Of a stretch of 64,000 bases of DNA, positions 1-42,349 are shown in pieces; the stretch's first letter is position 1; each line of letters begins with the position of its first letter. Source of the DNA: Caldilineaceae bacterium. GTDB lineage: Bacteria; Chloroflexota; Anaerolineae; Caldilineales; Caldilineaceae. The position numbers were made by a program, and so were the translations under genes. Location: assembly GCA_026708085.1 (NCBI GenBank), contig JAPOVP010000049.1, forward strand, positions 1 through 64,000, written 5' to 3'. The notes under the pieces were generated by a model. That model ran no database searches. It saw only the letters and a program-made list of their open reading frames with translations, and was not told where the DNA came from.

Positions 1-98
1 ATGATGTCGCTCAACTGATGAAACTTTGTGCGTTCAACGCGAGGATCTTCCAAATTCTCGAAGTGCTCAAACAGTGATACGCCTGTTTTCTCCGCCAT
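1..98 (-). CDS. ISAs1 family transposase, N-terminal fragment (cut by window edge)
   Basis: Only the first 32 codons are visible. The ATG is at 98 on the minus strand, preceded by an AAAGGGGGG ribosome binding site. The peptide contains LFEHFENLEDPRVER followed by HQLSDI. This is the characteristic start of the DDE_Tnp_1-associated N-terminal domain of ISAs1/H-repeat transposases, which runs as phenylalanine, a few residues, DPR, then a conserved His-Leu-x-Asp-Ile. The catalytic DDE core lies outside the window, so whether the copy is intact cannot be judged. Confidence 0.75.
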   Translation of the reverse strand, partial: MAEKTGVSLFEHFENLEDPRVERTKFHQLSDI

Positions 99-200
99 GA
101 GTCCCCCCTTTGTCTAGTGAAAGGACTCTCAATCGTATCAAATCGTCTCCTTTACGTCATCTGACCTATTTCTCAACCCAAATTAGATGCAATTGCCCTG
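1..200 (-). mobile_element. ISAs1-type insertion sequence, one end only
   Basis: This is the terminal part of an insertion sequence whose transposase runs leftward out of the window. The 5' end of the transposase gene is at 98 (minus strand). About 85 bp further out, 183-200 reads TTAGATGCAATTGCCCTG, which resembles the CAGGGC-type terminal inverted repeats of ISAs1 elements. I take about position 200 as the element boundary. The other end and the target duplication are outside the window, so the boundary is an inference from the transposase family and the sequence of this one end. Confidence 0.5.
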
Positions 201-25562: not shown

Positions 25563-27695
25563 TCAAGCGGCCATGGCAGCCCATTCTTCCATCAGTTCTT
25601 CCAGCCGCTGGGAGACAGCCCTGTGCTGGTCCTGCAACGCCTTCAGCTCCCCAAAATCCTGGCGAGCACTCGCTTGGGCCATACCCTCTTCAATCTCGTT
25701 CAACCTGCTTTCCATGCGTGCGACGCGTTCCTCGGTTTCGGCAACTGCCTGCTCCTGCCTCTGGGCCCTTTGCCGCTGACGGCGTGCCTCTCTCTGCCGC
25801 TCCCACTCCTCTTCCGCAGCTGAAGGAGACACATCCTCCGTCACAATCGACTCGGACCCGGAGCTTTGAAGACGCTCCTCCTGCCACTGCCTCCAAGTGC
25901 CGTTGAACGGTTCCAGATGGCCTGGTCGGTTTCCTTTCCCCGGTGTCACTTGCCAGATCTGCGTAGCCAAGGCGTCGATGAGAGCGCGGTCATGGGTGAC
26001 GAGCAGAATGGTCCCGTCAAACTGACGTAGGGCGTCCTGAAGGATCTCCTGGCTGTCCAGGTCCAGGTGATTTGTTGGTTCGTCCAGCAGAAGGAAATTA
26101 GCACCCTGCAGTGTCAGCCGAGCCAGGGCGATGCGGCTTCGCTGGCCCCCTGAAAGGCTCTCGACAGTTTGGAAGACTTCATCTCCTCTGAACAGAAACT
26201 GACCCAGAAAGGTCCGCGCCCGCTCGGTGGGGAGCCGCTTAACTTCGAGCAACGCGTCCAACACGGTCTGCTCGCCCTTCATTAAGCCGTAGCCGCTCCC
26301 CATGTGTCGTTGTGCAAGATAGCCTACGTCAACTGAGGCGCCCAGCTCCACTCTGCCAGTGAGCGGCTCCAACTCTTCCAGGATAGTTCGCACAAATGTA
26401 GTCTTGCCGGCACCGTTTGGGCCGATGAGGGCGGCAACCTTGCCCCGGAACAGGTCCAAGTCGGGAATCTCCAGAATGGGCGTGTCGGTAGGGGAGAGGC
26501 TGCGCATTGGACGCAGTCGACCCTCGCGCACAGGCCGCGGCGATTGCCGGGCAACCAGGTCGTGCTTACTGGATTGTAAGGCCGTTGAAGATGGAGAAGC
26601 TCCTATGTTTCCCTCACTACCGATCCCATGAAACTCTGACTCGGCAGGACCGGAGTCAGAGCCAGATACCGATTCCTTATACCCGGCGATTAACTTACGG
26701 GTTCGCAAGACCAGATCTCCACCGCGTGAGTGCGCGCGCAATGGAAGTCGAATAAACTGTTCAGTCGGAGGCGGCGGCAAGGATTCTTCTTCCAGAAATC
26801 TCTTTAGCCTCGTCTCTCTGCCCTGAGCTTCCTTGGTCCGCTGCCCGGCCTTGTAGCGGCGAACAAACGCCTGTGTCTCGCGAATGAACTCCTGCTGACT
26901 GTCATACTCCTTGCGCCAGCGGGCACGGCGGTCCTCTCTCTGCAGTCGATAGTGGCTGTAGTTGCCCCGGTAGGTCTCCACCCGACGGTGGGCAAGATCC
27001 CATATCCTCGTCGCGACCGAATCGAGAAAGTACCTGTCATGTGAGACGACCACGAGGGCGCCCTTCCACCCCGTCAGCACCCCTTCCAGCCAGGCCATCG
27101 ACCGCAGATCCAGGTGATTTGTGGGCTCGTCCAGTAGCAGGAGATCCGGCTCTTCCAAGAGCAGGCGGCCCAGACAGGCACGAGTCCGCTGTCCCCCGCT
27201 AAGGTGTGACAGTGGCGCCTGCCAAAGGGACTGTTCAAGGCCGAGCCCGCCAAGTACGAATCTGACGCGCTGGTCTACGTCGTAGCCCCCTGCCCGTTCA
27301 AACGCCTCCTGCTGCTTCCCGTAATGCGCCAGCAATCCCTCTAGCTCCTGGTCACCCTGGGCCAGGTCGGTCATCCTTGCTTCCAGGTGGCGCAGTTTTT
27401 GTCCCTCGGCAAGCAGGTCGGCAAAGACGAACTTCAGGTCTTCGAAGAGAGTACGCTGTCCGGCAGGCTGCGGGTCTTGCGCGAGGTAGCCAACACGCGT
27501 GCCCTGTGCGATTGAGAGTTCGCCGCCTACGCTTGTGTCGAACCTGCCCAAGGCACGAAGCAGGCTCGTCTTGCCGGCGCCGTTATGGCCAACCAGTCCG
27601 ATTCTGTCTCCGTATTCGATACGAACAGTGACGTCCTCAAACACGTCGAGGTCGCCGTAGTTTTTTGAAATGTGAGAGGCAACCAGAAGACTCAT
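25563..27695 (-). CDS. ABC-F family ATPase with a large insertion
   Basis: ABC-F proteins bind the ribosome E site and either relieve stalls or give antibiotic resistance. The 710-residue soluble protein has Walker A GHNGAGKT (about 36-43), LSGGQR (165-170) and DEPTNHLD, the linker with ETQAFVRRYKAGQRTKEAQGR (274-293), then a second Walker A GPNGAGKT (425-432) and second LSGGQR. A coiled coil with Glu/Arg/Gln follows to the end. Residues about 341-404 are a Ser/Gly-rich stretch inserted between the first strands of the second ATPase; typical relatives lack it. ATG 27695 is chosen because MSLL-x-A-x-x-I-S-K is the usual start. A TTG at 27773 would add 26 unconserved residues. Confidence 0.92.
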   Translation of the reverse strand: MSLLVASHISKNYGDLDVFEDVTVRIEYGDRIGLVGHNGAGKTSLLRALGRFDTSVGGELSIAQGTRVGYLAQDPQPAGQRTLFEDLKFVFADLLAEGQKLRHLEARMTDLAQGDQELEGLLAHYGKQQEAFERAGGYDVDQRVRFVLGGLGLEQSLWQAPLSHLSGGQRTRACLGRLLLEEPDLLLLDEPTNHLDLRSMAWLEGVLTGWKGALVVVSHDRYFLDSVATRIWDLAHRRVETYRGNYSHYRLQREDRRARWRKEYDSQQEFIRETQAFVRRYKAGQRTKEAQGRETRLKRFLEEESLPPPPTEQFIRLPLRAHSRGGDLVLRTRKLIAGYKESVSGSDSGPAESEFHGIGSEGNIGASPSSTALQSSKHDLVARQSPRPVREGRLRPMRSLSPTDTPILEIPDLDLFRGKVAALIGPNGAGKTTFVRTILEELEPLTGRVELGASVDVGYLAQRHMGSGYGLMKGEQTVLDALLEVKRLPTERARTFLGQFLFRGDEVFQTVESLSGGQRSRIALARLTLQGANFLLLDEPTNHLDLDSQEILQDALRQFDGTILLVTHDRALIDALATQIWQVTPGKGNRPGHLEPFNGTWRQWQEERLQSSGSESIVTEDVSPSAAEEEWERQREARRQRQRAQRQEQAVAETEERVARMESRLNEIEEGMAQASARQDFGELKALQDQHRAVSQRLEELMEEWAAMAA

Positions 27696-28134
27696 GTAAA
27701 GGCAAAAGTTAAAAAACAGGCGCGCACAGAAAGGCCAAACCGTCCTCCCATACCAGATGACATCTCCAGCCAATTGGCATGGGCGAAAGTTTGGCTGCGT
27801 GCGCAGAGTTTACCACATTTTCTGGCTTCTGCCGACAACGAGCAGGGATGAGAGCAGGGCAATTGCTTCTTGATTCGGTGATAGGCGTAACCTTCAGAGT
27901 GCATCCACATGGTTGGCTCCTTTGCAGTCGAGGAATCAACCCAGGATCAGGTTCCTTTGACATGTCGGGAAGGCCGATCAGAATCCAGCAAGATCGGTAA
28001 GCCGACAGACCTGTCAAGATTTCGCCCGCCTGCGTAGTTGTCTGAATCAGGATTTGCTTGACTTTTATGGATTTTCAGGATGGCGGGCGTCTCCCATCGC
28101 GGGCTTGGTTGGGTGGGCGTTTGCTAGTGCTTTA
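27696..28134. other. intergenic region ahead of the minisatellite
   Basis: This region holds the upstream sequence of the ABC-F gene (minus strand) and then non-coding DNA. No gene is seen. Near 28050-28080 the sequence runs ATTTGCTTGACTTTTATGG then GATTTTCAGGATGG, which resembles the degenerate aggattt-type repeats common in this kind of genome and grades into the tandem array. Confidence 0.45.
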
Positions 28135-29095
28135 CAAGAGATCACGAGAGTTTGCGTGCGTTTTCGGATTGTCTGAACTGCAGTTCTCGGGATTGGAGGG
28201 AGGGCTGCAGTTGCTGCCAGCAAAGGCGTGGTCCGACGAGAGTTTGCGAGAGTTTGCGTGCGTTTTCTGAATGTCTGAACTGCAGTTCTTGGGATTTCAG
28301 GGATGGGCTGTGATTGCTACCGCCACTGGCATAGTCGGACGAGAGTTTGCGAGTGTTGTACGAGAGTTTACAAGAGTTCAAGAGAGTTTGCGTGCGTTTT
28401 CGGATTGTCTGAACTGCAGTTCTCGGGATTTCAGGGATGGGCTGTGATTGCTGCCGCCAAAGGCTTAGTCGGACGAGTCTTTGCGAGTGATGGACGAGAG
28501 TTTGCGAGTGGTGTACGAGAGTTTACAAGAGTTCACGAGAGTTTGCCCGTGTTTTGGGATTGTCTAAACCGCAGTTCTCGGGATTTCAGGGATGGGCCGT
28601 GATTGCTGCCGTCAGAGGCGTAGTTGGACGAGTCTTTGCGAGTGATGGACGAGAGTTTACAAGAGTTCACGAGAGTTTGCCCGTGTTTTGGGGTTGTCTG
28701 AACTGCAGTTCTCGGGATTTCAGGGATGGGCTGTGATTATTGCTGGCACAGGCGTAGTCGGATGAGTGTCTGCGAGTGATGTACGAGAGTTTGCGAGTGG
28801 TGTACGAGAGTTTACAAGAGTTCACGAGAGTTTGACCGTGTTTTGGGGTTGTCTGAACCGCAGTTCTCGGGATTTCAGGGATGGGCTGCAGTTGCTGTTG
28901 GCACAGGCGTAGTCGGACGAGTGTTTGCGAGTGATGTACGAGAGTTTACAAGAGTTCACGAGAGTTTGCCCGTGTTTGCGGGTTGTCTGAACTGCAGTTC
29001 TCGGGATTTCAGGGATGGGCTGCAGTTGCTGAGGGCACAGACGTAGTCGGACGGGTGTTTGCTTGTGTTGTTCGAGAGTTCACGAGCGTTTTCCG
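28135..29095. repeat. minisatellite array, seven units with alternating 134/155-bp spacing
   Basis: The anchor GTCTGAACTGCAGTTCTCGG (with minor changes) begins at 28171, 28273, 28407, 28562, 28696, 28851 and 28985. Steps are 102, 134, 155, 134, 155 and 134 bp. The 21-bp difference is one extra copy of a short GAGTTTGCGAGTGGTGTACGA-like subunit, so the true higher-order unit is about 289 bp. Most units contain the perfect palindrome GAACTGCAGTTC, a GGGATTTCAGGGATGGGCTG block, and several ACGAGAGTTTACAAGAG/TTCACGAGAGTTTG subunits. Open frames across it are a by-product of periodicity. The first unit is shorter and more diverged, as array edges often are. Confidence 0.93.
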
Positions 29096-29517
29096 CTTGT
29101 ACGTTCAAAGTCGGATCAGGTCGGGCTATGTCGGATGGATTTCTTTTTGGCTCTGCTGCAGGAGCGCTTTTTGCGTCTGCAGGCCCGTGTCCGGGGTCGG
29201 CTCCTGGCTTGGGCATCCTCAAGAAGGCGTTCACGTACGGAAGACTCACGGCGGCTACCTGATCGAGTTTCTGGCAAGCTTGCGTGGATGAACGGCGGGG
29301 CGCTGCAGTCGTGGATTCGGCGGCGCGAACGTGTCTTATTTTGTATCTGCCCTCTCTTGGAAGGAATCCGTTGACGGTCGGATCATTTCAGTCACATTCT
29401 AACACAGAATGGAAGCCATTTTGGTGACATATTTGCGCAATTTTTGAGTTCGAGTTTCGACAGTTTGGGGGACCGAGGTTTCAGTCACCTGTGCTTTGCA
29501 TGCAACCAACAGGGAAA
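29096..29517. other. intergenic spacer between tandem array and dispersed repeat
   Basis: I see no gene, RNA or strong regulatory signal in this spacer. Short frames cross it on both strands without recognisable domains. Confidence 0.45.
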
Positions 29518-29890
29518 GGCCCAGGCTTGGCCACACGGTGGAGCCCGTCAGTTGGGCGTGCGAGGGCAGGAACAAGGCCGGCACCTACGGGGACCGGATG
29601 GGACTGGCGGGACGTGGTCTGCCCAGACCCCTTCGATTGGGCACCTGTTACGAATGTCGACACCCGGTCGGCGAGGCATGTTGTAGGAGAGGGGGCGTTG
29701 CGGGGGCGGAGCCCCTGCACAAGGGAGGGCCGAATAGGCCCGACCGCCCAAACTGCAGTGGTTAGTGGTTAGTGGTCAGTGGTCAGTGGTCAGAAGAGGC
29801 GCTTCACCTACTTCAGGGTTGAAAGCGGACTGGACATGGCAATGTTGCTACACGAGGGACAGGAAAGTCCACGCCAGTATTGGGATGCAC
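29518..29890. repeat. dispersed intergenic repeat, copy 1 (about 370 bp)
   Basis: This stretch matches 39150-39518 over its whole length. The highest identity is around GGCGAGGCATGTTGTAGGAG, the GGGGGCGTTGCGGGGGCGGAGCCCC core (a GC-rich palindrome), and GGAGGGCCGAATAGGCCCGACCGCCC. A short tandem of TGGTCAG heptamers follows at about 29757-29793 (here partly TGGTTAG). Both copies end near a shared ATTGGGATGCA. There is no transposase and no clear terminal inverted repeat. Both copies sit just upstream of a gene set (here livK). A non-autonomous mobile element or a structural intergenic repeat is likely. Confidence 0.88.
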
Positions 29891-30051: not shown

Positions 30052-31308
30052 ATGACAAAGAAACTTAGGTTTTTCAGTCTGTTCCTGGTTGCCGCGCTGA
30101 TGCTGGCGGCTTGCGTGGCTGCGCAGCCAGCCGCCGAAGCCCCGGCAGAAGAGGCCCCAATGGAGGAGGCCGCCGCCGACATGAGCGGGAAGGTGATCAT
30201 CGCCTCAGGCGGGGTGATCCGGATAGGCGGATCTTTCGCCCTGACCGGACCGATTCCTGATCCCGGTCTGAATATCCGGCATGGAGCGGAACTTGCCATC
30301 GATGACCTCAACGCCATGGGGGGCCTTGAAGGCTTCATGTTTGAACTGGTGGCCGAGGACGGTGCTTGCGACGGTACGCAAGGCACTAACGTAGGCAATA
30401 AGTTCGCGGCCGACGAGACAATTGTCGCCGTCACCGGCGGCACCTGTTCCGGCGAGACATTCGGTCTCGTGCCGATTCTTCAGGAGGCGCGGATCCCCTT
30501 TGTCAGTCCGAGCGCCACCAACCCGGACATCACGTCCGCCGACTGCGACGTCTGTAACCGCGTTGCCTTGAGCGATGCCCTGCAAGGGGCTACCGACGCC
30601 GACTTTGTGGTCAACAATCTCGGACTCACCAAAGTCGCGGTTGTCCACGACAACTCCGACTATGGCAAGGGGCTGTCCGAAATCTTCCAGAGCGGCGTTG
30701 CCAACCTGGGTGGCGAAGTCTCCAGTTTTGAGGGCGTCCAGGTAGGAGATACCGACTTTCGCGCCATGCTGGCCAGAGTTGGTGCAGACGGGCCGCAGAT
30801 CATCTTCTTCGGCGGCTACTCGACTGAGGCCGGCCTGATCGCGCAGCAGATGACGGAGACTCCCGGCCTGGAAGACACGGCATTCATGAGCGTTGACGGC
30901 GCCTACACGCAGCAGTACCTGGAGGCTGCCGGCGATGCGGCTGATGGAACCTATATATCATTCGTGGCCGGGGCCGACTCCGAAGAGATGAACGCGGAGT
31001 TTGACGCCAAGTACATGGAGAAGTACGGGGTCAGCCCCGACGACCTCGGGCCGTTCCACAGCCAGAGCTACGACTCGGTTAAGTTGATCGCCGCTGCAAT
31101 TGCTGCCGTAGCTTCTGTCGACGACAACGGCAACCTCGTCATAGACAGAGAGGAACTGATCTCGGCCATCCGCTCTATTGATGCGTTTGAAGGTTTGACC
31201 GGCACAATCAAGTGCGACAGCATCGGCGAATGCGGGGCCGGCGGTGTCCAAGTCTTCCAGGTCTCCGAAGGCGGTTTCAGTCAGGTATCTGGGTTCGGCA
31301 TGGAGTAA
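30052..31308 (+). CDS. livK: branched-chain amino acid-type ABC substrate-binding lipoprotein
   Basis: This is the extracytoplasmic receptor of the Liv importer. The 418-residue product starts with a lipoprotein signal (hydrophobic 7-20, lipobox LAAC). An acidic Ala/Glu/Pro tether leads into a periplasmic-binding type 1 fold of the LivJ/K class, with IRIGGSFALTGPI, GAELAIDDLNAMGG and AVTGGTCSGET. It carries several extra Cys (CDGT, CDVCN, CDSIGECG) that could form disulfides. AAGGAGG lies 5-6 bp before the ATG at 30052. Ligands of this family include branched-chain amino acids, amides, urea and aromatic acids. Confidence 0.9.
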   Translation: MTKKLRFFSLFLVAALMLAACVAAQPAAEAPAEEAPMEEAAADMSGKVIIASGGVIRIGGSFALTGPIPDPGLNIRHGAELAIDDLNAMGGLEGFMFELVAEDGACDGTQGTNVGNKFAADETIVAVTGGTCSGETFGLVPILQEARIPFVSPSATNPDITSADCDVCNRVALSDALQGATDADFVVNNLGLTKVAVVHDNSDYGKGLSEIFQSGVANLGGEVSSFEGVQVGDTDFRAMLARVGADGPQIIFFGGYSTEAGLIAQQMTETPGLEDTAFMSVDGAYTQQYLEAAGDAADGTYISFVAGADSEEMNAEFDAKYMEKYGVSPDDLGPFHSQSYDSVKLIAAAIAAVASVDDNGNLVIDREELISAIRSIDAFEGLTGTIKCDSIGECGAGGVQVFQVSEGGFSQVSGFGME

Positions 31309-41835: not shown

Positions 41836-41889
41836 AAAACACTCCAGGCTCCGTTGCCATTTTGGGGTTGTGAGAAACAGAGCCAATCG

Positions 41890-42130
41890 ATCCGCGAAGG
41901 CACGCGAAGGGTCGCGAAGAACAGCTTTTTGTCCACGAAGGGCCACTAAGGGCCGCGAAGAACACCTCTTTGTCTGCGGAGGGCCACAAAGGGCCGCGAA
42001 GAACACCTCTTTGTCCGCGGAGGGCCACTAAGGGCCGCGAAGAACACTTTTTTGTCCACGAAGGGCCACTAAGGGCCTCGAACAACACCTCTGTCCGCGG
42101 AGGACGCGGAGGGACGCAGAGAACACTTCT
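41890..42130. repeat. tandem array of a 41-bp unit, about five copies
   Basis: The anchor TTGTCC-[AG]-CG begins at about 41931, 41972 (GTCTGCGG), 42013, 42054 and 42093, with steps 41, 41, 41 and 39 bp. Each unit is close to GTCCACGAAGGGCCACTAAG followed by GGCCGCGAAGAACACCTCTT. The last copies decay into GACGCGGAGGGACGCAGAG. The frames that cross it (repeated Leu-Arg-Gly-Pro peptides on the minus strand) are artefacts. The DNA up to 42349 is otherwise non-coding and includes a CCCGCAAGGGGTGCCCCTAC fragment related to other intergenic repeats. Confidence 0.9.
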
Positions 42131-42349
42131 GTTTGATCGGCGAAATCACGAGAAGGGCCGGGAGGAAGGGCAAATAGCAGGGCACACACAAAGGAGGCAA
42201 CAAACAGAGCACCCGCAAGGGGTGCCCCTACGGTTGGGATGGCTGGTTGAAATGTCAACAGTCCCTAGCCATTGGCGCGGACGCGAAAGGAGCCGGTCTC
42301 TGGTAAGAGTCCGACTCCAATATTCCAGTCGGGTGAGAGTGAAATGCGC

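Follow-up and report, generated by a model that had tools for sequence, protein, structure and literature searches.

A Caldilineaceae minisatellite that resembles mobile DNA: a locally expanded repeat module associated with ISAs1-type elements

The minisatellite at positions 28135–29095 of the window (the whole analysed stretch of 64,000 nucleotides from a Caldilineaceae bacterium, contig JAPOVP010000049.1 of assembly GCA_026708085.1) is probably a locally expanded copy of a non-coding repeat module, distributed across its genus by ISAs1-family transposition. It has the look of mobile DNA that gains and loses length, not of a site dedicated to chromosome organisation, and the striking array is explained without a new system. 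The genome is a draft MAG of 6.24 Mb in 193 contigs; hence, array lengths rest on the assembly.

TRF recovered the reported minisatellite on the + strand (tandem units of 102–155 bp) with a period of 289 bp (2.9 copies, 87% match, score 1278) and also called periods of 134 and 155 bp, with matches lying within 28239–29080. TGTCTRAA anchors start at 28039, 28170, 28272, 28406, 28561, 28695, 28850, and 28984, giving anchor-to-anchor distances of 131, 102, 134, 155, 134, 155, and 134 bp. The 134/155-bp alternation described in the original prediction holds for the last five intervals, from 28272, but not for the earlier ones (131 and 102 bp), and the true start of the array lies around 100 bp to the left of 28135, at 28039. 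By anchor position, the + strand carries a first unit of 131 bp to the left of the reported start (28039–28169), of the TGTCTGAATCAGGATTT type that is amplified in the relative G010; a 102-bp unit (28170–28271); 134-bp units at 28272–28405, 28561–28694, and 28850–28983; 155-bp units at 28406–28560 and 28695–28849; and an incomplete final unit (28984–29095). The array is itself part of a larger block at approximately 27855–29514.

A 155-bp unit is a 134-bp unit with one extra 21-bp pair of ACGAGNGTTT-like boxes (10/11 bp each). Examples of ACGAGNGTTT boxes at 10/21-bp spacing lie at 28494–28544 (+ strand), as placed by TRF and by box positions and spacings, and the box-pair pattern is far above chance, with 106 matches in the genome versus 1 for a reversed control. 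A palindrome had been described in most units, and GAACTGCAGTTC does indeed occur at five of the eight anchors (28175, 28277, 28411, 28700, and 28989), with no further occurrence outside the array within the window; its position is taken by ACCGCAGTTC in two other units and by GAATCAGGATTT in the first. There is no clear support for growth of the array in 289-bp dimers: identity between units two apart (85.1%, 92.3%, and 89.6%) does not exceed that between neighbours (91.0%, 91.8%, 89.6%, and 91.0%), even though alternation along the array is seen for the 21-bp insert and for a CTGCAG/CCGCAG difference. The + strand of 28001–29000 is strongly skewed (GC skew +0.32, AT skew −0.23).

The array sits in a long intergenic region between divergently transcribed genes: an ABC-F type ATPase gene on the left (25563–27698, − strand; Pfam and orthologues) and a LivK-like periplasmic binding protein gene on the right (30052–31308, + strand; Pfam). 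Two ORFs overlie the array, neither of which matched a Pfam family; given this lack of Pfam matches, the long intergenic position, and the absence of the array from most relatives, the phase variation that had been proposed is not supported. The position between divergent genes and the palindrome in five units would be compatible with the array acting as a structured non-coding RNA or regulating the genes on either side, but this reading is highly improbable: an Rfam search of the array returned no family match, the predicted folding of the array strand does not surpass that of its shuffles (z = +1.85, with 19 of 20 shuffles folding at least as well), TCAGGATTT units replace the palindrome in the relatives G010 and G007, and the array is missing from most relatives that have this gene pair.

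Local expansion of a mobile module is the reading favoured here, and unit types and numbers do differ at one and the same locus between genomes. Every one of the 17 genus genomes has the ABC-F ATPase gene, and most preserve its synteny with the binding-protein operon. Array sequence occurs at the orthologous locus in G000, G009, G010, and G007 and is missing from G012, G008, G006, G011, and others, which together make up most of the relatives. In G010 the locus contains four 141-bp units, nearly identical and all of the TCAGGATTT type, against eight anchors and a different amplified unit type in the window; the G009 array is interrupted by an assembly gap and the G007 contig ends inside the array, and neither gives unit counts. 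These differences lend support to the unequal exchange envisaged in the original prediction, in the sense of tandem growth by slippage or unequal exchange, and the pattern fits lineage-specific expansion and homogenisation. Since G012 is closer to the window (90% protein identity) than G010 (84%), array loss in G012 is likely.

The repeat is dispersed and restricted to the genus. A genome search for further arrays, which had been proposed together with the original prediction, found the same modules at 23 loci, and a 301-bp piece of the array used as a BLAST query matched 60 places in the same genome. The loci share a polar layout in which 10-bp ACGAGNGTTT boxes are followed by a TGTCTGA module and a stretch of GGGATTT/GGATGGGCTGTGAT, present in n repeats, and after these by GTCGGGTNAN boxes and a T run; tandem periods vary by locus (113, 117, 118, 121, 122, 129, 130, and 142 bp). 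Array matches were found in 14 of 17 genus genomes versus 0 of 29 genomes from other genera of the family, and the box-pair pattern in 16 of 17 (control: 0–1 matches per strand), the single-contig closed genome G020 of the same genus serving as a natural negative control with 0 box matches. When 84,980 species were scanned for three exact boxes, 36 stretches were returned, nearly all from Caldilineaceae MAGs; isolate names suggest that the lineage is sponge-associated. Box-pattern matches in Streptomyces, Actinoplanes, Bacteroidales, and a Granulicella MAG were set aside, as they look like independent 10-bp repeats. Boxes on a Halieaceae MAG contig (JAPOQD010000096.1) resemble the Caldilineaceae repeat, which could reflect a misbinned contig or a transfer. 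Plasmid records yielded no match, and a literature search for the GAATCAGGATT word returned only unrelated strings.

The dispersed elements share inverted ends, a transposase-derived end, and target duplications of 9–10 bp. Sixteen of the 23 loci carry, ahead of the array, the 3′ terminus of an ISAs1 transposase gene (72%–87% match to the IS), and the orientation of this IS-derived end relative to the array is constant at all 16; arrays on C23 (at 104.7 kb), C167, C181, and C49 lack it. The reference IS is an intact 1253-bp copy in the relative G007 (L219), which is flanked by a perfect 10-bp duplication, GCCCCTTGAC, and encodes a 378-aa ISAs1-family transposase (NF033564, E 5e-133). The reverse complement of its 3′ end corresponds to the left ~160–260 bp of the array-bearing elements. 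Its inverted ends are also theirs: the inverted end CAGGGCAATCGCATC gave 92 matches versus 4 for a control, CAGGGCAATCGCATC-like ends bound many array loci, and terminal inverted repeats lie on both sides of elements on C122 (two), C129, C59, C94, C12, and C140.

Target duplications around array elements comprise one perfect 10/10 match, CCCGTAATTC, two of 9/10, and two of 8/9, each with a chance probability of 0.0004 or less. Fifteen end pairs were tested, of which six had no duplication and two were borderline; pairs without a duplication are as expected for old copies, but this is not proof. The elements, which are non-coding and ~0.7–1.7 kb long, contain no intact transposase gene, matching only IS positions ~974–1253, and an alignment of eight of them revealed homology from end to end, with the box cargo inside. 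Taken together, the shared ends, target duplications, and end-to-end homology indicate that the dispersed array-bearing elements are, as judged from their sequences, ISAs1-derived MITEs with an internal minisatellite.

The window copy is not an intact MITE. To the left of its array lies a remnant of the left end of an ISAs1-type element (27855–28038, + strand), comprising an imperfect inverted end, CAGGGCAATTGCTTC (27855–27869), and ~170 bp, with an 81% match to the corresponding end of an element of 676 bp on C60. On C60 the array lies just outside the right end of that element; in the window it follows directly after the left-end remnant, and the simplest reading is that a deletion joined the two. 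The block common to both copies spans ~28037–29514 and includes, to the right of the array, a conserved segment with GTCGG boxes (29096–29514, + strand; BLAST); the C60 sister copy matches window positions 28658–29514 at 74.8% (BLAST). Because an end-pattern search found no right inverted end, the window copy has no target duplication, and its similarity to the IS extends no further than the inverted end, arrival of the window copy by transposition is something we can only infer.

A typical element of 0.7–1.7 kb has the terminal ~160–260 bp of an ISAs1 transposase gene as one end and the opposite inverted end as the other, with ACGAGNGTTT boxes, a TGTCTGA module, and GTCGGGT boxes in between. 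Such elements would be moved in trans by an ISAs1 transposase. The module in the window would have arrived by ISAs1-type transposition and then been fused to the left-end remnant, with unit number changing through slippage or unequal recombination, and the array presumably has no dedicated host function. The conservation of the module across divergent copies could also mean selection.

In one rival explanation, helically spaced ACGAGNGTTT boxes are sites for a DNA-binding protein (nucleoid-associated, a transposase accessory, or replication-linked), and selection favoured tandem growth. Box spacings of 10/11, 20/21, 30/31, and 40/41 bp in the genome would suit one-sided protein binding, and the enrichment of box pairs in 16 of the 17 genus genomes is in keeping with this; however, tandem duplication of a 10-bp word yields the same spacing. 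The closed genome G020 is devoid of boxes, and most relatives have no array at the locus. Orientation could be cited in favour, as the G-rich strand of the array agrees with local GC skew at 20 of the genome's 22 loci (20 of 23 if the disagreeing window copy is included) and at 25 of the 33 loci on two closed chromosomes, but in other genomes, where flanks are short, only ~15 of 27 array loci do so (hand count). Unrelated repeat families are oriented as strongly or more so, GTTGCGGGGGCGGAGCCCC (51/55 and 24/25) being one example. The GC-skew bias therefore says nothing special about the array, and replication orientation was rejected as an array-specific signal. Sites of this kind are an unlikely explanation. 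An extended version, in which the ACGAG and GTCGGGT boxes keep helical register, follow the direction of replication, and together make up a polar protein-binding system hitch-hiking genus-wide on ISAs1 elements, is very unlikely.

The dedicated roles in protein binding, partition, and chromosome organisation that had been suggested for the array are not supported. About two dozen dispersed copies exist, mostly on transposon-derived elements; the palindrome is not conserved in relatives, being absent from the G010 and G007 units; most relatives lack the array at this locus; and the orientation bias is common to unrelated repeat families. In this genome, G017, and G019, more than 80% of the clusters of unrelated intergenic families (GTTGCGGGGGCGGAGCCCC, a CAGTGGT tandem, and GGGCAGGCACAAGGCC; for example, at window positions 29691–29750 and 29756–29793) follow local GC skew, with the G-rich strand on the presumed leading strand. 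Why several such families, unrelated to one another, should be aligned with replication is a separate question that lends itself to testing.

An assembly artefact would account for the many related elements found at contig ends, as expected of collapsed repeats. Such an origin of the array is extremely improbable, since its units are separated by many substitutions, the sequence on either side is unique and shows synteny with relatives, and the same kind of array occurs in the single-contig genomes G017 and G019. The contig itself breaks inside an ISAs1 IS: window positions 1–200 (− strand) hold the 5′ end of a full ISAs1-family IS, including an inverted end (186–200) and the transposase start (92.5% to the IS in L219; PF13808). 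At least eight other contigs of the same genome end ~55 bp inside the same multi-copy ISAs1 ends, and short-read assembly thus breaks there.

Among known systems, the BOX elements of Streptococcus pneumoniae, which have the form boxA-(boxB)n-boxC, the ends being fixed while internal boxB modules vary in number (PMC3049150), are the nearest design, a resemblance in architecture only and not membership. BOX ends resemble a resident IS, and there is a slight leading-strand excess (PMC3049150). The array-bearing elements are likewise dispersed, non-coding, and composite, with fixed, IS-resembling ends, an internal module in variable tandem number, and mild leading-strand enrichment; however, their ends are ISAs1, their length is ~0.7–1.7 kb, they include a remnant of the transposase gene, and their array is not predicted to fold. 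With ISAs1-family IS (NF033564, PF13808) they share the inverted ends, the 10-bp target duplication, and the last 160–260 bp, in which the transposase gene ends, but they lack that gene and their middle is replaced by repeat modules. As in bacterial IS-derived MITEs—Nezha with ISNpu3, cited as an example in PMC3049150, or MITEAba12 (PMC6382973)—they are non-autonomous, share inverted ends with an IS, have target duplications, and occur in many copies; unlike these, they are strongly G/T-skewed and carry an internal minisatellite.

The analysis thereby describes, for an uncultured lineage of the Caldilineaceae, a BOX-like family of IS-derived elements whose internal minisatellite can expand. 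The arrays are possible markers for strain typing, and related elements cause breaks in short-read assemblies.

Two further repeats were observed. A second minisatellite lies at window positions 41889–42167, with a period of 41/123 bp and CGCGAAG-type repeats (TRF), and its CGCGAAG-type word is also dispersed in relatives. The TTGTCTGAATCAGGATTT module elsewhere forms one arm of a ~100-bp inverted-repeat element (IMG/VR contigs L378:6120-6219 and L381:10063-10161); among 400 sampled genomes of the phylum, it occurred only in the genome studied here, with 44 matches.
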